IMG/VR virus record: IMGVR_UViG_3300027985_001356
Span: 1-53,100 of that record
DNA length: 53,100 nucleotides
Source: a virus
Reading direction: 5' to 3' (one strand)
In this document: positions 845 to 27,818 of the stretch, piece by piece
Position numbering within the stretch: position 1 is the stretch's first letter
How the letters are laid out: every line of letters starts with the position of its first letter
Position numbers and translations under genes: made by a program
Notes under the pieces: generated by a model
The model's input: only the letters and a program-made list of their open reading frames with translations
Told to the model about the DNA's origin: nothing
Database searches by the model: none

Positions 845-1018
845 ATCATAGAGCATTGCCATCTGCTCCAAGAATACATCCTTGGGAACCGCAGTTTGTG
901 CAGAGATCCTTACGAGCTCTGCAGCTAATGCCGGGATGACATAGTCCGGAGATCTGCGTTCGATCGCCTGTTTGATTGCGGAGGATGCTAGCTCGACTCC
1001 TGTTGGCAAGATACTCAT
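806..1018 (-). CDS. Small hypothetical protein downstream of the baseplate-plug fusion
   Basis: A 70-residue acidic-to-neutral protein predicted to be mostly helical, with no recognised motif. Its start overlaps the stop of the upstream gene (1018), so it is the last gene of the leftward operon. Its 3' end runs 39 bases into the convergent HExxH gene. Being coupled to a tail protein gene it may be a chaperone or tail-fibre-assembly factor, but this is only positional inference. Confidence 0.6.
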   Translation of the reverse strand: MSILPTGVELASSAIKQAIERRSPDYVIPALAAELVRISAQTAVPKDVFLEQMAMLYDLACPLASPGPRP

Positions 1019-2115
1019 TAGTATTTCACCAGCCCAGGATACAAAAACTTAATCCAGTCTAGCACTTGCTGGTGTTCTGCGGATGCGTCGGTAATATATG
1101 TATCGGTTACGAAAATCTGTTTGACGTTCCCTTCGAGTTCTTGAAAGGAACCAATGCGGCCTACCTCGTTCCAGTTATGGGCGCCTGGCGCCCATGCTGT
1201 CGAGAACGTATTTTCAGCGTTGCCATCTACCGCGACAGTTAATGTGTTTGCGACGTCGTTGGCACTAAACCTTAGGAGGGTCCATCCCAAGACGGCAGAT
1301 CCTCCGATCTGGTTCCAGACTCCGGAAAAAATCCCTGGCCTTTGGTTTCCACCAGGGGAGGCGTGCGGAAAGAATCCTATGTTCCCCGTGTCGCTCCAAA
1401 AGAGGTTTTTGATCCCGGTATTGTTCGGGATCTCCATAAAGATATACGCGGTGGTATTTGCACCTATCCCTTTGGCGCTGGTGAACTGTAGGGCGTCCGT
1501 TTCGGCGGGGTCGTAAAATACAGTAGCGGTGCCATCAACATCCGGATCGACATACTTAGGATCTAGAGCCGTGGGGACGCCGTTGGTCAAATCGTTATTG
1601 CTGGGGCTCCTGTCTTCCCAATCGGTGACTCGCCCAGATAAGACTGTGGTACCAAAACTGGCATCAAACCATGCTGTTAGATTGAGCCCGAATATGGCGG
1701 ACGGATCACCTGGCGGAGGAAGCGGGGCTCCCAGGGTGGCTCTCACCGAGGTATTTGCTTGCTGTACTACTATAGATGCCTTTAGGGCGGCGATCTCAGC
1801 AGCATCTACGTAATTTAACAGGACGTCGACACCAAGCTGATTAAGTGTCGGGGGCTCAGTAACAACCCCTTGGTTGATGCTGATGATATTGCCGGCGGGA
1901 CGTGATGCCTCTTGCCACAACCTTAACAGCGACCATTCCGTTACGACCCTGATACCTGCGCGCAGAATCGTGTCATCAGTATCGAGGACTGTCATGTACC
2001 ATGAGTTATCTCGATCGTTGTAACGAAACTCGAGTTTGAACTCGACGCCGTCCAATTCTACTTCAAAATCGTAAAACGGAACATCTATCGTAAGAGGTAG
2101 CCTGTCAATTGCCAT
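1018..2115 (-). CDS. Baseplate plug domain fused to LamG-like domain
   Basis: 365 residues from the ATG at 2115; a TTG 21 codons upstream is less likely because the family motif starts just after this ATG. Residues about 1-85 match the phage baseplate-plug (DUF6983/Pam3 gp18-like) pattern: FYDFEVELDGVEFKLEFRYN, then W-Y-M-x-V and a C-terminal LRLWQ. After a linker, residues about 145-365 resemble a LamG/concanavalin lectin-like fold (LTAWFDAS, VTDWEDRS, VGRIGSFQ, WIKFLYPG), common in phage adhesins. The domains fit a structural tail protein that seals the hub and binds glycans. It lies on the strand opposite the tail module, which lacks another plug gene. Confidence 0.8.
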   Translation of the reverse strand: MAIDRLPLTIDVPFYDFEVELDGVEFKLEFRYNDRDNSWYMTVLDTDDTILRAGIRVVTEWSLLRLWQEASRPAGNIISINQGVVTEPPTLNQLGVDVLLNYVDAAEIAALKASIVVQQANTSVRATLGAPLPPPGDPSAIFGLNLTAWFDASFGTTVLSGRVTDWEDRSPSNNDLTNGVPTALDPKYVDPDVDGTATVFYDPAETDALQFTSAKGIGANTTAYIFMEIPNNTGIKNLFWSDTGNIGFFPHASPGGNQRPGIFSGVWNQIGGSAVLGWTLLRFSANDVANTLTVAVDGNAENTFSTAWAPGAHNWNEVGRIGSFQELEGNVKQIFVTDTYITDASAEHQQVLDWIKFLYPGLVKY

Positions 2116-2239
2116 ATATAGGCCTAAGAGCTTACACTTCGTCGAATCAGACAGCAAGAGAGAGGGGCAGGGCAGCAAAAAGGTATGAGCATAATCCGAC
2201 AGAATTGAACAGATTAAAGATTGCTGCTCCGCCCCCCCT

Positions 2240-16901: not shown

Positions 16902-17297
16902 ATGTCGAGTGCTGATGGCAGCAAGAATCTCCAGCCGGAGAGGCCGAGAAAGAGAAAGCCAACGCCTGCGTCGTGGAAGAAAGGCCAGAGTGGCAATCCG
17001 GAAGGACGCAGGAAGGAGATTGGTCATGTCCGCGAGCTAGCTAGGCTCTATACCGAAGATGCTATGAGCGCTTTGGCGGAGATTGTTAGGGACAGCAGCG
17101 AGAACGCCTCAGCTCGCGTACGGGCTTGCGAGGTCCTTTTAGATAGGGGCTGGGGGCGCCCGCCGGCTGCCCTTGAGCTCACGGGGTTCGATGGCGGACC
17201 CATCCTTTTTGAGGAGGCTCAGAATGAACTCGAAAGCATCCTTGATAGCATCTCTGTCCGATGCCGAGAGGAAAGCCTGGGTATCGAGCCTCACTAA
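16902..17297 (+). CDS. Terminase small subunit (DUF5681)
   Basis: 131 residues. ASWKKGQSGNPEGRRKE at about 24-40 is the DUF5681 signature, often the DNA-binding part of small terminases; a helical region (ARLYTEDAMSALAEIV, ARVRACEVLLDRGWGRP) follows. It recognises the packaging site and positions the large subunit. The start lacks a ribosome-binding site and is probably leaderless. Its 3' end overlaps the large subunit by 74 bases. Confidence 0.85.
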   Translation: MSSADGSKNLQPERPRKRKPTPASWKKGQSGNPEGRRKEIGHVRELARLYTEDAMSALAEIVRDSSENASARVRACEVLLDRGWGRPPAALELTGFDGGPILFEEAQNELESILDSISVRCREESLGIEPH

Positions 17298-18549
17298 AGA
17301 GCAGGCGGCTGCGCTTCGATGGGAATGGGCGTTTTTTGCTAGGCCCGAACAGCTGGCGCCCGAAGGGAATTGGGACACTTGGTTAATTCTTTCCGGCAGG
17401 GGTTGGGGTAAGAGTCGGACGGGCGCGGAGTGGGTCCGCTCGCTTGCTGAGTCTGGCAAGGCAAAGCGGATTGCCTTAGTTGGTGCAACGGCTGCGGACG
17501 TTCGCGATGTGATGATCGAGGGCGAGAGTGGCATTATGTCGATATGTCCTCCTTGGGATCGGCCTCTCTATGAGCCCAGCAAAAGGCGTATCACCTGGCC
17601 TAATGGTGCGATGGCGACAGCGTACAGCGCAGATGAGCCAGACAGACTCCGTGGGCCTCAGCATGATGCGGCCTGGTGCGACGAAATTGCAGCATGGCGC
17701 TACGGGGAGGCCTGGGACCAATTGCGCTTCGGTCTACGCTTAGGCGATAGACCTCAAACCGTGGTCACGACAACTCCAAGACCAACGCAGATGATACGCG
17801 ATCTAATCAAGCACAAGACCACCGTTGTTACGAAGGGTTCTACCTATGACAACAGGATGAATCTTGCCCCGACATTCTTCAGCCAGATCATATCTAAGTA
17901 CGAAGGGACACGGATAGGAAGGCAGGAGCTTCATGCGGAGCTTTTGGATGATGTCCAAGGGGCACTGTGGCAGCACGCTGATATCGATAAGTGTAGAGTC
18001 TCTACTGTCCCCTTGCTACGCAGGGCCGTTGTGGCAATAGACCCTGCCGTAACAAGTGGTGAGCATTCGGACGAGACAGGAATTATCGTTGCTGGCATCG
18101 ACGAGAAACGCCAGGGTTACGTCATTGCCGATCTGAGTGGGCAGTATTCCCCCGGGGAATGGGCCAAGGTGGCGGTGGATGCGTATTATAAATACGATGC
18201 AGATCGGGTTGTTGCCGAGGTGAATAATGGCGGCGATCTGGTTGAATTCACCCTTCGGACGGTTGCTCAAAACGTTAGCTACAAAGATGTTCGTGCAACG
18301 CGCGGGAAGTTTACCAGGGCTGAGCCGATCGCCGCGCTATACGAACAGCATAAAATTCATCATGTTGGGATGTTTGCCAAGCTTGAAGACCAGATGTGCA
18401 CCTACGTTCCAGGGGGCAAGTCCCCCGATCGGATGGATGCTCTCGTGTGGGCATTCTTCGACCTCATCGTCAAGGAGGAGTCGTTTTCCATTGGCACATT
18501 TGGTAGCTCGGTGTTTTCCACGGGGTTACGTAATGGCAGACACGTGTGA
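17224..18549 (+). CDS. terL: Terminase large subunit
   Basis: 441 residues from ATG 17224, with GAGGAG eight bases upstream. The ATPase has Walker A SGRGWGKSRTG at about 57-67, a DEIAAW Walker B region (WCDEIAAWR), and a TTTPRPT coupling segment. The C-terminal nuclease has VAIDPAVTS near 270, EVNNGGDL and SPDRMDALVWAF. It cuts concatemers and drives DNA into the prohead as the packaging motor. Confidence 0.95.
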   Translation: MNSKASLIASLSDAERKAWVSSLTKEQAAALRWEWAFFARPEQLAPEGNWDTWLILSGRGWGKSRTGAEWVRSLAESGKAKRIALVGATAADVRDVMIEGESGIMSICPPWDRPLYEPSKRRITWPNGAMATAYSADEPDRLRGPQHDAAWCDEIAAWRYGEAWDQLRFGLRLGDRPQTVVTTTPRPTQMIRDLIKHKTTVVTKGSTYDNRMNLAPTFFSQIISKYEGTRIGRQELHAELLDDVQGALWQHADIDKCRVSTVPLLRRAVVAIDPAVTSGEHSDETGIIVAGIDEKRQGYVIADLSGQYSPGEWAKVAVDAYYKYDADRVVAEVNNGGDLVEFTLRTVAQNVSYKDVRATRGKFTRAEPIAALYEQHKIHHVGMFAKLEDQMCTYVPGGKSPDRMDALVWAFFDLIVKEESFSIGTFGSSVFSTGLRNGRHV

Positions 18550-18637: not shown

Positions 18638-20230
18638 GTGAGTCTTGCCAAGGTACACAAACAAGAGCCCAGCAAGGTTCGCCCCTTGGATGTTTTAGGA
18701 TCTACAGGGCTAAAGCACCACGCGGGAATCATAGACGAGGAGTTTCTTACTCGACTGCGTGGCGAGAACGCGATCAAGACCTATCGCGAGATGGTCCACA
18801 ACAGCCCCACGATTGCGGCTGCTCTCAATGCAATCAAGATGCTTATCGGGCAAGTCAAATGGCGGGTTGAGCCTGCTGATGAATCGGATGCTGCTATTGC
18901 AGAGGCGGAGGACACGGAATCAGCGCTCGAGGATATGAGCCACACCTTTTCGTCCTTCGTGAGCGAAGCACTCTCGATGATCTGGGCAGGATATGCGCCG
19001 TTTGAGATTATCTATAAGCTTCGTCGAGGGCCAGACCAAGACGATGCGTCACTCCGCAGTAAGTTCAATGATGGAAAGTGGGGCTGGCGCAAGGTTGAGA
19101 TCAGAGGGCAAGAGACACTCTCTAACTGGGTCTTTGATGATGAGGGTGGTCTTAACGGGATGGTGCAATGGGATACGCATGCACCCCAGACAGGGTCTGT
19201 CTTTATCCCCATTGATAAAATGCTCCTGTTTCGCACGAGCACGTTTAAAAATAACCCAGAGGGCCAATCCATGCTTAGGCCCGCGGTTATCCCGTATTGG
19301 TTTACCAAGCGTATCCAGGAGTTCGAGGCAATCGGGATTGAGCGCAACTTGGCCGGGATGCCCATCATGGAGGTTCCTCCCGAAATTCTAGTCGCAGATG
19401 CATCCGCAGAGCATAGGGCTACGCGCACCTTCCTTGAACAGTTCGTCACTCAGGTGAAGATGGATGAACGATGGGGTGGTCTTGTTCCCAGCGAGCTCAA
19501 GCCCGACGGCTCGCCTAGCGGATACAAGTTCAAACTGATGCAGTCCTCTGGGCGCAAGCTCGTGGACACAGACATCATCATCAAACGTTACCGCTCTGAG
19601 ATGCTGATGCTGTTCATGGCGCAGTTTTTGGTCATGGGGACCGAAAAGGTTGGGTCCTTCTCGCTGTCGAGCAACATGACCGCGATGTTTGGCACGGCGC
19701 TTGGGGCGATTATGGATAATATCGCCGATACCGCGAATCGGTTCCTGATCCCTAGAAGGCAGAGGCTCAACAAGAGACCTCAAGAGCTAGATCCTGTACT
19801 TGTCCATGGAGACATTGAAGGGCCTGAGCTCGACAAGGTCGCGGCCTATATCAACCAACTCGCGTCGGCAGGGATGATTGGTCCAAATCCTGCGCTCGAG
19901 CGAAAGCTGATGGAGATTGGCAACCTGCCCCAGCCCGAGGAAGATGAAGAGGTGCCCCCGGCCCTGTCTGAGAACACGATCAATTCGACGGGTCGCCAAT
20001 CCCTCTCTGCAGATCAGGTAAAGGCCATGATGGAAATCCTAAGGGCCCTTAAAGGGGGCTTGCTCGATAGGCCATCTGCCATCATGGCGCTATCAGCTGC
20101 GCTAGGGATTAGCGAAGAGCAGGCGGAGGGGTTTATTCCGGCAGAACCCGAAGATCCTCCTCAGCCTGAAACAATATTGCCCTCGCCTGAGGAGATTGCA
20201 GAGTTGGCCGTCGAGGATGAGAATGAGTAA
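18638..20230 (+). CDS. Portal protein
   Basis: 530 residues from GTG. ENAIKTYREMVHNSPTIAAA, ALSMIWAGYAPFEIIYK, RTSTFKNNPEGQSMLRPA and FTKRIQEFEAIGIERNLAG match the portal family related to Mu gp29/DUF935. The dodecameric portal is the DNA entry ring and binds terminase. The C-terminal 100 residues are acidic and Pro-rich, likely flexible. Confidence 0.92.
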   Translation: MSLAKVHKQEPSKVRPLDVLGSTGLKHHAGIIDEEFLTRLRGENAIKTYREMVHNSPTIAAALNAIKMLIGQVKWRVEPADESDAAIAEAEDTESALEDMSHTFSSFVSEALSMIWAGYAPFEIIYKLRRGPDQDDASLRSKFNDGKWGWRKVEIRGQETLSNWVFDDEGGLNGMVQWDTHAPQTGSVFIPIDKMLLFRTSTFKNNPEGQSMLRPAVIPYWFTKRIQEFEAIGIERNLAGMPIMEVPPEILVADASAEHRATRTFLEQFVTQVKMDERWGGLVPSELKPDGSPSGYKFKLMQSSGRKLVDTDIIIKRYRSEMLMLFMAQFLVMGTEKVGSFSLSSNMTAMFGTALGAIMDNIADTANRFLIPRRQRLNKRPQELDPVLVHGDIEGPELDKVAAYINQLASAGMIGPNPALERKLMEIGNLPQPEEDEEVPPALSENTINSTGRQSLSADQVKAMMEILRALKGGLLDRPSAIMALSAALGISEEQAEGFIPAEPEDPPQPETILPSPEEIAELAVEDENE

Positions 20231-21360: not shown

Positions 21361-21546
21361 ATGTTTTCTGAGAATTATTGCTTGTGCGTGAATCAGTGCG
21401 AACAATGCGGGGCCTGCTGCAGGTATGAGTGCGAGCATCGCGGCTCCCACATAAGGACGCTCTCGACAACATCCGACAGCATTGGTTGCGTGGTCGAGTC
21501 ACTAACATCAGACAGGTGCATCCTGGATGCATCGGGCTCCCAGTGA
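21361..21546 (+). CDS. Small Cys-rich protein
   Basis: 61 residues. CLCVNQCEQCGACCRYECEH packs eight Cys into 19 residues near the N-terminus, suggesting a metal cluster or tight zinc knuckle. GGAGAG lies before ATG. Its end overlaps the MuF-like gene by 20 bases if that gene starts at 21527. Confidence 0.65.
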   Translation: MFSENYCLCVNQCEQCGACCRYECEHRGSHIRTLSTTSDSIGCVVESLTSDRCILDASGSQ

Positions 21547-22516
21547 CATGTCCCTGATCACCAAAGCGAACCGTCGCGTCAAACAGCCCGCATGGCAACG
21601 TGGTCTTAAAGTCCCCGACAAAGAGCAACGAGACGCATTGGCAATCACGGCCAATCACGAACAGAAGTTCTCGCGTGCGTTTCTGAAACTTCTCAGAGAT
21701 CTGCTCACCCCCGACATGCTTAGGCAGATTGGTAAACTGGTGAGATCTGATCTGAGGCCAAACGAGATCATCGATCAAATCCCCTTCTTCGACCCAGACA
21801 ATCCTAAGACCTTCGCCATCTGGCAGGGGTTCGCGCACAAAATGGAGGGGGTCTACACTAAGGTAATTGAAGAATCCGTCCAGAATGAAAATCGTAAGCG
21901 TGGCTGGAAAGTGGACGTGTTCAAGGTTGAGGCGCCAGAGCTGCCAGCGAATGCAACCCCTGCGGATTTCGTGCGAATCAGGTCGCTTACGCGCGTGGTC
22001 GATATTTCGGACAAGGAGAGGGAGCGAATTCGCGAAATCCTTATCAGGGGGCTCGAGCGTAGGGTGGTTCCATCGTCGATGATCGAGGAGATAGAGGACA
22101 CCGTGGGGCTTACTGTTCTACAGGCAGCCCGTGTGGAGCGTAGAGTTGCGGCTGCCGCGGCCGTAGGGGCCAAGGGCGACCAACTACGCAAGATACGACA
22201 GGACCTAGCCGCGGGGCTCAGGAGACAGCGAGCACGTACTATCGCTAGGACCGAGGCCAACGATGCAATATCCCGAGGTCTCACTGAATCGTGGAAGCGT
22301 GCGGCTGATGCAGGTCTGAGCCCGCCTGGAACAAAGAAGCGTTGGGTTGCCATGGCTGGAGATGATCGAATTAGCGAAATCTGCGAGGATCTGGATGGGC
22401 AAGAAGTGGGATTGAATGAGAATTTTTCATCAGGGGCAGGTGAAGGGTTCACGGGGGAAGGGCCTCCTGCTCATCCTAATTGCAGATCTACTATGGTGCT
22501 GGTGTTTCCATCATGA
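21527..22516 (+). CDS. MuF-like minor head protein
   Basis: 329 residues from ATG 21527 (AGGTG upstream); ATG 21548 is an alternative. RTIARTEANDAISRGL at about 233-248, KRWVAMAGDDRISEICEDLD and GEGPPAHPNCRSTM are hallmark segments of the Mu F / SPP1 gp7 family, minor capsid proteins attached to portal and sometimes injected. The helical N-terminal 130 residues probably contact the portal. No extra C-terminal toxin domain. Confidence 0.9.
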   Translation: MHRAPSDMSLITKANRRVKQPAWQRGLKVPDKEQRDALAITANHEQKFSRAFLKLLRDLLTPDMLRQIGKLVRSDLRPNEIIDQIPFFDPDNPKTFAIWQGFAHKMEGVYTKVIEESVQNENRKRGWKVDVFKVEAPELPANATPADFVRIRSLTRVVDISDKERERIREILIRGLERRVVPSSMIEEIEDTVGLTVLQAARVERRVAAAAAVGAKGDQLRKIRQDLAAGLRRQRARTIARTEANDAISRGLTESWKRAADAGLSPPGTKKRWVAMAGDDRISEICEDLDGQEVGLNENFSSGAGEGFTGEGPPAHPNCRSTMVLVFPS

Positions 22517-22633: not shown

Positions 22634-24997
22634 ATGCCACTAGTCGAAGCATGTTCTGTTGATGCGTTCCGCGAAAATATTCGCACTGAGATTAAAGCTG
22701 GAAAGAGTCCAAGCCAGGCCACTGCAATTGCCAGGCGAGTGCTTGATGATTCGTGCAAAAGGGAGGGGAAGCCAGTGCCTGATGAGATAGCCAAAGAGAA
22801 TAAGGCCAAGAAAGAAAATAAGCCCAATAGTCGAGAGTATTTGGAGGCTGCCCTTGAGCAAGCAAAGAAGCTTCTGCCTGGATGGATGTTCGCTGCGATT
22901 CATGCGGCGGCATTTCCCGCATCGGGTGGTAGGGCTGCCCGGAATCGCAGGCTTGAGGCAGCGGAAAAGCTATGGATCGAAAAAAAGGCAATCTCCTCAC
23001 TGTCCAATCAAGAGCTGAAGTCAATGCTTCACAAGCTCAACGTCACCTTTGCAGCGAACACAAGGCAGAAGAAAGACGTCAATGCTGTCCTGTCTCGGGT
23101 CAAGTCTGTTGTAGCCGAGATGAAAAAGCGAAAGATGGAAGTGAAGGGCAGAGCTGTTGACGCTATTGCCAAAGCAGAAACATCTGTTATTTCTGTCGAC
23201 GGTCCACAGGAATGGGGCGAGCTAAAGAAGGGTTTCCAGAATGGTGAGCCTGAGGGCGGAATGCATGCCCATGGTCTGGATAGGCAAAACTCCAAGACCC
23301 TGATGGACGGCGAGCACTTGCATCTCTTTGTGATCCCCGGCACCGGCGAGATGGTGTTAACCCTTGAAGACGGCGCCCATGCGCATGGTATTTCCAAGGA
23401 AGGCAACACAACCGAGTCTGATGGTACGCATTCGCACCGGGTTCCCATGATGGACGGGTCTGTACTTGAGACCACGCTCGGGGGTGCGCATGCGCACGAG
23501 CTAATGATCGAAACCAGTGGTTTTGGGGGATTGCACCAACATGTTTTGAAGTTGCAGGATGGGACGGAAATACCCTCTCTGTCACCAGCGGAGTTTGTCG
23601 CCAGGTTTGTCGATTTCTCCAGCATTGCTGCGCATCCGATCCACTCATCTCGAGATGTTGCCAATGCCCTGAATGAGGCGAGTGATTTGCGCGATCAGTT
23701 ATTCCCTTCAGCTGGGTTCCCTACCCCAGATCAACTCGTGGAAGATTTCGCCAAAGGCAAAGAGCGGCCCCCGCTACCCAACACCTGTTGGGAAGTAGTC
23801 CGGTTAGCCAAGGACGGGGCCTTTTGTGCGCTGTCTGATATGGACGACCCGGTTCTTGTACAGAATTCTATAGGGCTGGATTTGGCCGTTGGCGATGTGG
23901 TGGAGTTGGATGCGCATGCCCAAATTGTCGCGTATTCAAAGTCTTCCGAGCCTCACAGTTTCGAGGAAGCGAACACATTAGCCACCTATGTAAGCATAGT
24001 GGAGAAGTCGCTAGAGAACATCCCTTTTGCCGGCCCGCAAGGAGCGCCACTTGTATTTGTATCGGCGACACCGACAAATCTAGAGTTCGCGCGAAAGGAA
24101 GGTCTTGCGGGTCAAGATGGTGAGATTTTCCAGGAGAAATACCTGTCTCCTTTAGGGCTTACAAAGAAGGATGTTGGTATTGGGTTTGCGATCCCCGTGC
24201 GATGCCCTGAGCCTAACAATGATCATATCGATCTGTGGCGCGATTCGTTGTTGAAATCACTATCGATATACGACAGTGCAAAGGTTGTTGCTTTGGGGAG
24301 ATGGGCAAAGGAGGCGCTGGGGCCTATTGCTAGCTTTTCACTTCCCCATCCTGCTGCTGTTCGGCGCCATGGCGACAGAGGTGAAGTGCAACGCAAGCTC
24401 AAGTCCATCCGCAAAGTACTTGACAACAAAGATGTAACCATTGATTCTAAACCAAGTTCTAGCTCTTCGCCGATGCAAGGTGAATCTGGGGCGACCCTCG
24501 CTGATTCCATAAGTGAGCTGAGCCAAGGCGGAAGCCTTCGCGTGTCGGTAGCAAAGTCGTTACCCGAGAAGCAAATTGTTTATGGAGTCATCCTGGATCC
24601 GTATCAGGTTGATTTGCACAACGACTGGATACCGCCCGCGGAGATAGAGGCCACCGCTCATGACTTCCTTACGAAGTCGCGCGTTGTTGGCCTTCGCCAT
24701 GCTGGGAAGGCGGAAGCCGAAGTTGTGGAGAGCTGGGTTGAGGTATATCCGACAAAAGAAGACAGAGAGCTTGCTTTGCAGAATCTGCCCCACCGAGCGA
24801 ATCGGCGGGAATTCGGCGGTGACGTGCTTCACTCGGGGGCTTGGGTCGCGGGGGTTAAGCTAACAGATGAACTCTGGGAGCTGCATAAGCGCGGCGAGCT
24901 GGATGCTTTCAGCATTGGCGGTTTCAGCTTTAAGACGCAGGTCTCTACGGATGCGATGCCCGAAGTTGAGTTCATCGATCTCGCTCCGCAGGCATAA
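22634..24997 (+). CDS. Polyvalent protein: His-rich repeats, UDG-like domain, XkdF-type protease
   Basis: 787 residues. Residues 14-37 carry NIRTEIKAGKSPSQATAIAR, a motif seen at ends of many phage proteins. About 207-302 contains repeated His pairs (MHAHGL, HLHLF, AHAHGI, THSHRV, AHAHEL, LHQHVL), likely metal-binding beta repeats. About 470-597 resembles uracil-DNA glycosylases: VSATPTNLEFARKEGLAGQ, ALGRWAKEALG and LPHPAAVRRHGD. About 642-767 (KQIVYGVILDPYQVD, VGLRHAG, AFSIGGFSF) is XkdF-type prohead protease (Peptidase S78-like). It would mature the capsid and may carry a DNA-directed domain into the head. Upstream of scaffold and capsid genes. Confidence 0.85.
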   Translation: MPLVEACSVDAFRENIRTEIKAGKSPSQATAIARRVLDDSCKREGKPVPDEIAKENKAKKENKPNSREYLEAALEQAKKLLPGWMFAAIHAAAFPASGGRAARNRRLEAAEKLWIEKKAISSLSNQELKSMLHKLNVTFAANTRQKKDVNAVLSRVKSVVAEMKKRKMEVKGRAVDAIAKAETSVISVDGPQEWGELKKGFQNGEPEGGMHAHGLDRQNSKTLMDGEHLHLFVIPGTGEMVLTLEDGAHAHGISKEGNTTESDGTHSHRVPMMDGSVLETTLGGAHAHELMIETSGFGGLHQHVLKLQDGTEIPSLSPAEFVARFVDFSSIAAHPIHSSRDVANALNEASDLRDQLFPSAGFPTPDQLVEDFAKGKERPPLPNTCWEVVRLAKDGAFCALSDMDDPVLVQNSIGLDLAVGDVVELDAHAQIVAYSKSSEPHSFEEANTLATYVSIVEKSLENIPFAGPQGAPLVFVSATPTNLEFARKEGLAGQDGEIFQEKYLSPLGLTKKDVGIGFAIPVRCPEPNNDHIDLWRDSLLKSLSIYDSAKVVALGRWAKEALGPIASFSLPHPAAVRRHGDRGEVQRKLKSIRKVLDNKDVTIDSKPSSSSSPMQGESGATLADSISELSQGGSLRVSVAKSLPEKQIVYGVILDPYQVDLHNDWIPPAEIEATAHDFLTKSRVVGLRHAGKAEAEVVESWVEVYPTKEDRELALQNLPHRANRREFGGDVLHSGAWVAGVKLTDELWELHKRGELDAFSIGGFSFKTQVSTDAMPEVEFIDLAPQA

Positions 24998-25021: not shown

Positions 25022-25912
25022 ATGCCCACAGTCGTGAACATGCTCACCGCCGTTCAAACGGCAGAGGTGAGTCTCGTTAAGCGTGGCGCTAACAATAAGC
25101 GCTTCGCCCTAACCAAATCCAAGGAGCAGCAGATGCCAATTCAGGAGCTAGCCAAGACGGTTATCGAAACTGAAGCGGAAGGCGAAGGCAAGCTGATTGA
25201 GACTCTCAAGGCCGCTGGAGCGGATGAGGAAACAATCGGTATCTCGGTCGCAAATTTCCGACTTCAGAGCGGGTTCAAGGACAAACTGAGCAAGGAAGCG
25301 TTTCGCGCTGTCGCAGAGGCTTCAGGGTTTGAGGTCGCGAAGGCCAAAAAAACCGAAGATGAGGAAGATGAAGAGGAGGGCAATCCGTTCGCCTCTAAGA
25401 AAAAAACGACCAAAGAGGAGGGGGAACCCATGACAGAAGAAATGCGAAAAGCATTTGACGAGCAACAGGCGGAGCTAGTCGAGTTACGAAAAGCCGCTGC
25501 GGAAAAGGACGCTCGTATCGAGAGGATCGAAAAAGCGGCTCAACTTAAAGAATACGTTGCCAAGTGCGCGTCTGACTATGCCCATGTTCCTGGCTCTAGC
25601 GCCGAGGAAATGGGAGAGATGCTGCAGAAGGCATATTCTGTCGATGAAGATCTGGGCAAGAGGTTGGAAAAACAGTGGGCGGAAGCTTCCGAGGCAATCA
25701 AAAAGTCCGAGCTTATCCGTTCTCGCGGCATCAATGCTGTAAGCGATGGTAGCGGAACTGCTTGGGGCAAAATGGAGGCATTCGCCAAAGAGCTCACGGT
25801 GAAGAACGAGGGTCTTTCCGAAGGCAAGGCGATGAGGCTTGTCATGGAACAGCACCCGGAACTGTACCAAGAATACCTCAACGAGAATCCAGCGCAGCTG
25901 GGTCGTCGATAG
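25022..25912 (+). CDS. Scaffold-like capsid assembly protein
   Basis: 296 residues; AGGGGG before ATG. The N-terminus AEVSLVKRGANNKRFALTK is a motif usually found at the end of XkdF-type proteases or start of their scaffold. The middle is very acidic (TEDEEDEEEG), followed by a coiled coil (about 140-180) and a soluble helical end. It should guide capsid assembly and be removed by the protease encoded just upstream. Confidence 0.78.
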   Translation: MPTVVNMLTAVQTAEVSLVKRGANNKRFALTKSKEQQMPIQELAKTVIETEAEGEGKLIETLKAAGADEETIGISVANFRLQSGFKDKLSKEAFRAVAEASGFEVAKAKKTEDEEDEEEGNPFASKKKTTKEEGEPMTEEMRKAFDEQQAELVELRKAAAEKDARIERIEKAAQLKEYVAKCASDYAHVPGSSAEEMGEMLQKAYSVDEDLGKRLEKQWAEASEAIKKSELIRSRGINAVSDGSGTAWGKMEAFAKELTVKNEGLSEGKAMRLVMEQHPELYQEYLNENPAQLGRR

Positions 25913-25926
25913 AAAGGAATTGAATC

Positions 25927-26301
25927 ATGGCATATGATAATGCGAGATATACCCTGCCCGGGATTAGCGCGGGTGCGGATCTGACAGCAGCGCAGCATAG
26001 GTTTGTGTCTATTGATGCAACCGGACGCGCTGTTCTTACGGCAGCAGGCGCGCGTGTTGATGGCGTCGTGGACAACAAGCCCAATCTTGATGAAGCAGCC
26101 GCTGTCCTTGGATACGGATCCGTTGCGAAGGTAGAAGCGAGTGCCGCAATTGCTGCGGGTGCTTCTGTTGCGTCTGCTGCAAACGGTCAGGCTGTTACAG
26201 CAACTCTTAATGCTTTCATTGCTGGTGTATGCGTCGAGGCCGCAGGCGCCGCGGGTGAGCTTTGTTCCATCTACCTAGCCTCTCATGGACAGTCGCCGTA
26301 A
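25927..26301 (+). CDS. Capsid decoration protein (DUF2190-like)
   Basis: 124 residues, Ala/Gly/Val-rich. GISAGADLTAAQHRFVSIDA, GVVDNKP and KVEASAAIAAGASVA fit the DUF2190 capsid-cement proteins, which bind the shell surface as trimers. It lies directly before the major capsid gene, the usual place. Confidence 0.85.
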   Translation: MAYDNARYTLPGISAGADLTAAQHRFVSIDATGRAVLTAAGARVDGVVDNKPNLDEAAAVLGYGSVAKVEASAAIAAGASVASAANGQAVTATLNAFIAGVCVEAAGAAGELCSIYLASHGQSP

Positions 26302-26340: not shown

Positions 26341-27309
26341 ATGCCTCAACCAACAGCATCAGATGTACATGTTAACAGACCGCTCACCAATGTCAGCGAA
26401 GCGTTCTTGCAAGATCTTACCGGCTTCGTTGCTCGTAAAGTGTTCCCTGTTGTTCCTGTTTCCAAGCAGAGCGACCGCTATTTTAAGTATGACAAGAAAC
26501 AGTGGTTTCGAACCGACGCCAAAGTTCGTGCACCGTCGACGGAATCCGCTGGGTCCGGGTTCACGATCGACAACACTCCTACGTATTTTGCGAAAGTCGT
26601 CGCTCTGCATAAGGATGTTGACGATCAGATCCGAGCCAACTCGGATGCACCAATCAACCCCGACAATGACGCGACGGAGTTTGTCACTCGTCAGCTAATG
26701 CTCCAACAGGAGCAGGATTGGGCTGCGAAGTATTTCACCACAGGCGTATGGACTGGGTCGACCACCGGGACCGACGTAACCCCAGGTGTTCTCTGGGATG
26801 TTCCGGCAACCTCGAATCCTATCGAAGATTTGCGGGCGCAAATTACCGCAGTAGGCAGGAATTCGGGACTCGAAGCAAACACGCTGGTTCTAGGGAAAGA
26901 AGTTTGGGACGTTCTTCAGGATCATCCCGACTTTCTCGAGCGCATTAAGTTCACCCAGACAGCGATCGTTGCACCCGATCTACTGGCTGCAGTTCTGGGC
27001 CTTGATAGAGTGCTTGTGGCGAAGGCTGTCCAAGACACTGCTGCAGAGGGTGCGGCTGCGAGCCATGCGTTTGTGCATGGCAAGAACGCTCTCGTCACCT
27101 ATTCAGCTCCGCGCCCAAGCCTGATGAAGCCAAGCGGGGGGTATACCTTCGCGTGGACGGGTCTTCTTGGAGCCAACAGCTCAGGGATGCGCATTAAGCG
27201 ATTCCGGATGGTTGAGTTGTCGTCTGACCGTATCGAGGGTGAGAGTGCATATGACCACAAGGTCGTGTCGCCCGAGGCCGGCGCTTTCTTGAGCGCTGTT
27301 ATTTCGTAA
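26341..27309 (+). CDS. Major capsid protein
   Basis: 322 residues. VNRPLTNVSEAFLQDLTGFV, ARKVFPVVPVSKQSDRYFKY, NTLVLGKEVWDVLQDHPDF, IKRFRMVE and YDHKVVSPEAGAFL are typical of the HK97-fold capsid family found in Mu-like and related myoviruses. AAAGGA lies before ATG. A strong terminator follows, which could raise the level of this gene's transcript relative to downstream genes. Confidence 0.92.
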   Translation: MPQPTASDVHVNRPLTNVSEAFLQDLTGFVARKVFPVVPVSKQSDRYFKYDKKQWFRTDAKVRAPSTESAGSGFTIDNTPTYFAKVVALHKDVDDQIRANSDAPINPDNDATEFVTRQLMLQQEQDWAAKYFTTGVWTGSTTGTDVTPGVLWDVPATSNPIEDLRAQITAVGRNSGLEANTLVLGKEVWDVLQDHPDFLERIKFTQTAIVAPDLLAAVLGLDRVLVAKAVQDTAAEGAAASHAFVHGKNALVTYSAPRPSLMKPSGGYTFAWTGLLGANSSGMRIKRFRMVELSSDRIEGESAYDHKVVSPEAGAFLSAVIS

Positions 27310-27377: not shown

Positions 27378-27818
27378 ATGTACAAAGCACTCCGTCCCTT
27401 TAAATATCAGACCGCCAGCGGCGAAATTAAGATAACGGTCCCGGGGCAGTCTATCCCCGAGGCTAGCGGCTGGAAGAATCTCAAGATATTTCTTGAGCGT
27501 AGGTGGATTTGTAAAGAAGGTGAAGAACCGAACAGGCGGCATTATTCAGCAAAGGTTCCCAAGACGGCACCGACAGTTAAAGCTGTGCCGAAAACGAGCC
27601 CCGTCAAGGTTGCCACTAAGGTTGCAACTAAGGTTTCCACCGAGCCTGTTGTTAGAAAGAAGGACAAAGAGACCAGGGAGGCGACTCCTCGAAAGCATAC
27701 TTCCCGAGATCTTGAGTCCATGTCGAAAAAAGAACTCCAGAGTCTCGCCAAGTCTCTGGATGTGGATCCGCATCAGCCTAAAGCCGACCTTGTAGCATCT
27801 GTCTTGGCTGCCCAATGA
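27378..27818 (+). CDS. Hypothetical head protein with C-terminal SAP/Rho-N-like motif
   Basis: 146 residues. A beta-rich start (ALRPFKYQTASGEIKITVPG) is followed by a Lys/Thr/Val-rich low-complexity linker with tandem KVATKVATKV. The end (DLESMSKKELQSLAKSLDVD, then KADLVASVLAA) fits a SAP/LEM/Rho-N-type helix-hairpin used for DNA or protein contacts. It overlaps the connector gene by four bases. Exact role unknown. Confidence 0.7.
   Translation: MYKALRPFKYQTASGEIKITVPGQSIPEASGWKNLKIFLERRWICKEGEEPNRRHYSAKVPKTAPTVKAVPKTSPVKVATKVATKVSTEPVVRKKDKETREATPRKHTSRDLESMSKKELQSLAKSLDVDPHQPKADLVASVLAAQ

Follow-up and report, generated by a model that had tools for sequence, protein, structure and literature searches.

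A uracil-DNA-glycosylase-fold domain within a capsid protease polyprotein of environmental phages

Phages and conjugative elements encode polyvalent proteins, whose domains include a C-terminal assemblin-like capsid peptidase, Pol-beta nucleotidyltransferase, methylase and 2H domains, and which constitute a described precedent for proteins of this kind (PMC5512222); the main text of the survey in question makes no mention of uracil-DNA glycosylase (UDG), DNA ligase or XkdF. SPN3US provides examples of head proteins that its prohead protease matures and that are probably ejected, while prohead protease propeptides often exit the head (PMC10052503). With regard to the glycosylases, prior dissection of Thermus UDGa assigned the role of leaving-group, catalytic histidine to H155, the exclusion of thymine to E47 and the binding of uracil to N80 plus F54, single changes at E41, F54 or N80 costing roughly 17- to 900-fold, and established the correspondence of N80 to N123 of E. 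coli UDG (PMC5387724); the substitution N123D converts the latter enzyme to one that excises cytosine and proves toxic in E. coli (PMC3989344). DNA glycosylases have joined the conflict between phages and bacteria on the bacterial side, the example being Brig1, which attacks the modified bases of T4 (PMC11078745).

The whole stretch of DNA analysed, referred to throughout as the window, comprises 53,100 nucleotides of the IMG/VR virus record IMGVR_UViG_3300027985_001356, and contains a single unbroken plus-strand ORF (22634-24997; ATG 22634, stop 24997) coding for a protein of 787 aa (Table 1). A first-pass annotation of the bare sequence had placed the motif NIRTEIKAGKSPSQATAIA, six HxH repeats, a UDG-like segment and an XkdF protease together in this one protein, close to a MuF gene: all of these sequence claims hold, the residue ranges then proposed (200-310, 465-600 and 640-770) were correct to within a few residues, and MuF is the product of the adjoining upstream gene. 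The motif NIRTEIKAGKSPSQATAIA occupies aa 15-33, and thus falls within the match to the N-terminal phage family phrog_2423.

Table 1. Positions in the window of the polyprotein gene, its domains and the neighbouring head genes
Feature	Residues	Position	Strand	Basis or remark
Terminase large subunit		17173..18549	+	
Mu-type portal protein		18638..20230	+	
MuF head morphogenesis protein		21527..22516	+	PF04233, E 2.4e-13; directly upstream of polyprotein gene
Polyprotein gene		22634..24997	+	Helical N-terminus, HxH repeats, UDG-fold domain, XkdF prohead protease
N-terminal phage head-gene motif	1-34	22634..22735	+	phrog_2423, E 5.9e-11; confident helices in model
REYLE-type helical domain	62-182	22817..23179	+	Profile search
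HxH-repeat domain	196-316	23219..23581	+	Weakly YmaF-like
Small beta-rich region	375-455	23756..23998	+	Profile search, AlphaFold2 model
UDG-superfamily domain	461-600	24014..24433	+	Pfam, profiles, AlphaFold2, Foldseek
H572	572	24347..24349	+	Corresponds to the catalytic H155 in Thermus UDGa
Disordered Ser-rich linker	601-632	24434..24529	+	Model, divergence between close relatives; candidate processing site
XkdF / Peptidase_S78_2 prohead protease	639-766	24548..24931	+	PF14550 match
Probable scaffold		25022..25912	+	First 58 residues match head maturation protease family phrog_3017, E 6.1e-5; putative function
Head cement / scaffolding family protein		25927..26301	+	
Major capsid protein		26341..27309	+	phrog_1005, E 2e-84

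The match of the C-terminal domain to PF14550 was well above the relevant curated cut-off (E 3.5e-18; 66.3 bits against 24), H689 and S760 were invariant across a 13-row alignment, and the domain was modelled by AlphaFold2 with pLDDT values mostly of 85-98, apart from two ten-residue blocks near 69. The location of the polyprotein gene between the portal and MuF genes on one side and those for the scaffold, cement and major capsid proteins on the other is the slot expected of a prohead protease, and the homologues in L106, L119 and L131 are likewise flanked by portal or MuF plus capsid genes. Elsewhere in the window, the capsid gene is followed by one for a small protein (27378-27818) whose C-terminus weakly resembles SAP/Rho_N and which matches phrog_3281 (endonuclease VII), and the left end carries a Pam3 gp18-type baseplate plug gene (1018-2178, minus strand), the other tail genes being located far off at the right end. 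Among the other window genes scanned, a set that took in only part of the small ORFs, families of nucleotide metabolism such as dUTPase and thymidylate synthase were not recognised.

Searching the PDB with the full 787-aa protein using phmmer gave no UDG match, and recognition of the glycosylase-like region required profiles. PF03167 matched aa 467-582 with an E-value of 5.3e-6 and a score of 27.0 bits, the curated cut-off being 24.3, a family profile built from ten sequences retrieved from the PDB both 4zbx, at 5e-14, and 1ui0, the Thermus UDGa, at 7e-12, and family-4 UDGs were already the top match of a domain model built from only four sequences. In the full-length AlphaFold2 model, generated from a 55-row alignment, the pLDDT values were 93-98 for aa 461-600, below 50 in the linker (601-630) and low in the HxH region. 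Foldseek comparison of this model with the PDB returned 1l9g (2.3e-7; TM-score on target 0.65) and 1ui0 (4.3e-7), with TM-scores of ~0.62-0.65 for the family-4 UDGs, which ranked first and were followed by UdgX and then by TDG and MUG. The UDG core, on whose presence in a predicted structure the first-pass annotation had staked its assignment, is thus present at aa 461-600 with family-4 UDGs as the best PDB matches, and the region was confirmed by fold as a UDG-superfamily domain.

Residues of this domain were mapped onto those of Thermus UDGa as dissected previously (PMC5387724), and the equivalent positions compared in 86 members of the family. Motif 1 corresponds to SATPTNLE (aa 477-484) and motif 2 to LPHPAAVRR (aa 570-578). 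In place of the GE(A/G)PG of motif 1, with its E41-G42 pair, the window protein reads S477-A478-T479-P480-T481, and the equivalents of E41, F54 and N80 are A478, L491 and F518 respectively. The catalytic histidine is retained as H572 in the window and as His in 84 of the 86 members, the pocket acid equivalent to E47 is E484 in the window and E or D in all 86, and the G56 position is invariant. Because E41, F54 and N80 are replaced by A, L and F, ordinary uracil excision by the window protein is doubtful, and the window copy probably has either an altered base specificity or a weak activity. Family-4 UDGs carry the four cysteines of a 4Fe-4S cluster; with C524 as the single Cys within aa 461-600, the window domain would contain no such cluster, and judged by its residues it is not a family-4 enzyme.

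The position equivalent to N80 was occupied by N in 17 of the 86 members (mostly large proteins), by an aromatic residue in 11 and by D in 51 shorter ones, the D-type assignment being tentative in that these proteins have a shortened core aligned at this position through the profile, and most of those tested went unseen by the Pfam UDG model. In many short relatives the core is trimmed, being lost after beta-2, and the domain falls below Pfam UDG recognition. The identity of the residue at the N80 position switches several times on the protease tree, which suggests that the choice of base may have shifted repeatedly. In L072 and L087, the His-Pro of motif 2 is replaced (LPTTEEL), and these UDG-like domains are probably dead copies.

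Comparison of the window protein with its relatives gave pN values of 0.14-0.25 for the UDG domain against pS values of 0.65-0.83, the synonymous sites being near saturation, and dN/dS values of 0.06-0.11 for the protease domain. The linker (aa 601-632), with a dN/dS of 0.5-1.0, is nearly unconstrained between close relatives, and is the one exception to purifying selection over the whole protein. A maintained UDG domain followed by a freely varying linker fits either a processing site or a simple tether.

Of the regions preceding the UDG domain, the REYLE-type domain occurs in roughly half of the fusion family, taking up an N-terminal position in the large members. The six HxH motifs of the next domain are at aa 211, 228, 249, 266, 286 and 301; when the residues of the 787-aa protein were shuffled 10,000 times, at least six such motifs were recorded in only 2 cases. 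All 12 of the relevant histidines are unchanged in the three closest relatives, and the equivalent region of the relative L023 matched Pfam YmaF with an E-value of 0.0016; metal binding by this domain is a possibility. The beta-rich region may possibly represent the remnant of a ligase OB fold, as judged by eye alone.

Scans of IMG/VR conducted with the protease domain alone, and separately with the UDG domain, yielded ~100 distinct ORFs in total. Of the 60 distinct ORFs retrieved with the protease domain whose 5' side could be read, 59 had a UDG-like domain upstream, and this domain was N-terminal of XkdF in each of 88 fused proteins. Full-length relatives of the window protein (L002-L004) shared 58-77% identity with it, and the HxH domain is common to these nearest architectures and to L023, while L006 combines HxH and protease without a UDG domain. 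The related XkdF proteases L005 and L017 also have no UDG domain and are sisters on the protease tree, suggesting that in this pair it was either lost or never gained. In the shorter fusions L116, L131, L064 and L030, DUF3721 and/or DUF5824-like domains are N-terminal of the UDG-like domain. A viral structure library returned two long matches, A0A516MCN4 (824 alignment columns) and A0A516KYX7 (491). Among the phage isolates searched, tblastn detected no fusion, UDG, XkdF, ligase and methyltransferase being matched only apart from one another; genome contigs gave no match to the full-length alignment and one partial match, on a short Bacillota MAG contig, to the XkdF alignment. A search of open-access papers in their main texts found nothing in which uracil-DNA glycosylase is combined with XkdF or a head maturation protease.

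An ATP-dependent DNA ligase was recognised in 17 large relatives (Pfam E-values down to 1.5e-25), with the adenylation motif KxDG or KxNG plus EGxVxK, and most of these ligase-bearing proteins also contain a GSx(8-9)DxD nucleotidyltransferase signature, as well as a putative LigD-phosphoesterase-like domain. It is this signature, together with a third Asp, that identifies a putative Pol-beta-type nucleotidyltransferase, a search of the PDB by profile having given no match. In 20 large proteins, ~230-270 residues separate the UDG and protease domains; the LigD 3'-phosphoesterase model (LigD_N) matched in 13 of the 19 aligned (best 8.4e-5), L016 and L102 falling below the curated cut-off, and the catalytic motif HxDxR (H-G-D-L-R) is conserved in this LigD-like region, which is absent from the window protein. 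Some large relatives add a SAM methyltransferase or 2H phosphoesterase, and L024:3932-6055 has a P-loop kinase (AAA_33, 1.9e-11) in the slot taken elsewhere by ligase or HxH domains. These extra domains appear mostly to provide activities for the healing and sealing of DNA or RNA ends; no AP endonuclease was recognised among them. L102:113-3838 and L106:5862-9662, as also L108, L112, L120 and L137, have very similar UDG/ligase cassettes but end in clearly different XkdF subfamilies, the L102 protease scoring 113 bits against Pfam XkdF and only 68 against the window-type profile, which suggests that the protease was swapped behind the cassette. The ligase-UDG proteins of L107, L135 and L137 are split over two overlapping frames, as the result of a frameshift that may be either a sequencing error or real.

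Given the observed architecture, fold, gene position, family-wide conservation and purifying selection, we infer the following sequence of events. The C-terminal XkdF domain is the prohead protease, and the N-terminal regions probably target the polyprotein to the interior of the prohead, which it would enter as a protease plus passenger, the glycosylase-fold domain being tied on by the disordered linker. At maturation, the protease probably cuts this linker, and the freed domain would be retained in the virion with the packaged DNA, acting on bases while still in the head or, if so delivered, soon after ejection. Across the family at large, the domain would be one part of a kit for base and strand-break repair, or for DNA counter-defence, other members of which could include the ligase, Pol-beta-type nucleotidyltransferase, LigD-like phosphoesterase and kinase. 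To the central proposition, that the glycosylase-fold domain of a head polyprotein acts on the bases of DNA within a repair or counter-defence kit, we would assign an even chance. The first-pass annotation had likewise envisaged a polyvalent protein entering the cell with the DNA: conservation of the architecture in ~90 phage contigs, and its extension by ligase and end-processing domains in large relatives, fit that idea, while the activity of the UDG-fold domain, its base substrate and its entry into the cell are points that we infer.

A serious if somewhat improbable alternative is that the UDG-fold domain has ceased to be an enzyme, and would serve either as a DNA-binding or structural module anchoring the protease to the scaffold or to packaged DNA, or as a degraded propeptide that leaves the head. 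The replacement of the uracil-pocket residues in the window clade is in keeping with such a role, as are the truncated cores of the short relatives and the missing histidine in two members; furthermore, the frequent departure of propeptides from heads (PMC10052503) implies that the domain might never be delivered. However, loss of catalysis accords poorly with the near-universal leaving-group His and the pocket acid present in every member compared, and with the large relatives, in which the equivalents of E47, N80 and H155 are all kept, catalytic DNA ligase motifs being present alongside.

There is a slim chance that the domain is instead a base-specific weapon or counter-defence, the reprogrammed pocket of a head-delivered glycosylase being directed at cytosine, modified cytosine or other bases in the DNA of the host or a competitor. 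The presence of N, D or an aromatic residue, with several changes on the protease tree, at the very position that discriminates uracil from cytosine, the toxicity conferred by the corresponding N123D substitution (PMC3989344) and the precedent of Brig1 (PMC11078745) all point in this direction. However, the window protein has F rather than D at that position, the D-type cores are shortened and aligned there only via the profile, the 51 D-type sequences are related rather than independent, and the ligase and phosphoesterase partners suggest repair over attack.

The chance that the fusion arose from an assembly error or misread frame is negligible and this explanation was rejected, no sign of either having been found for the window and only a few relatives being frameshift-split, against an identical domain order in 88 fused proteins, conserved synteny and purifying selection over the whole protein bar the linker. 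An ordinary stand-alone UDG beside a protease gene was also considered and rejected.

Returning to a head polyprotein whose glycosylase-fold domain would act on DNA, its occurrence in the capsid proteases of dozens of related environmental phages, in some cases together with ligase and DNA-end enzymes, suggests that the head may carry a DNA repair or attack kit. The most far-reaching version, which we regard as unlikely, is that of a self-processing base-excision machine in which a glycosylase with a repeatedly changed base-choice residue (N, D or aromatic), a ligase, a nucleotidyltransferase and end-healing enzymes would be released by the protease and delivered with the genome, there to repair damaged phage DNA or to excise cytosine or modified bases from host or rival DNA. 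In a protease subfamily that is widespread in environmental viromes, nearly all of the capsid proteases incorporate a glycosylase fold, which if active would allow the phage to introduce a base-excision kit of its own into the cell ahead of any gene expression. The fusion makes testable the notion of cargo delivered by a capsid protease polyprotein, and natural variants at the residue that switches uracil to cytosine specificity could be of use for base-editing enzymes.

When compared with known systems, the window domain resembles the family-4 UDGs (Thermus UDGa 1ui0, Sulfolobus 4zbx and Thermotoga 1l9g) in its fold, in the HPA of motif 2 with its leaving-group His and in the acid equivalent to E47, but differs from them in having SATPT rather than GE(G/A)PG as motif 1, in the replacement of F54 and N80, in being without a 4Fe-4S cluster and in being embedded in a capsid protease. 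Its protease domain and place in the head operon are those of other XkdF / Peptidase_S78_2 proteins (PBSX XkdF, HHTV-2 gp38 and Limnohabitans phage DC31), although the DC31 homologue has only ~264 aa, as against 787, and was matched only behind the UDG domain of the query. In Rhizobium phage proteins such as those of RHph_Y1_11 and RHph_I4 (phrog_1530), a DNA enzyme is similarly annotated in combination with an XkdF-like prohead protease, but as a methyltransferase rather than a glycosylase. In phiLo (9qhs) and several phage PolA proteins, a phage UDG-superfamily domain is likewise part of a fusion, in that case with a family-A DNA polymerase, a replication enzyme, whereas the window fusion is a head protein. 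As in the polyvalent proteins (Iyer et al. 2017, PMC5512222), several unrelated domains are combined in one phage protein near MuF or portal genes, and the XkdF domain, like the assemblin-like peptidase, is C-terminal, the likeness here being one of position. Polyvalent proteins themselves are already described, and the window protein differs from those named in the main text of that survey in having a UDG-superfamily domain, assigned by fold, within a capsid protease polyprotein.
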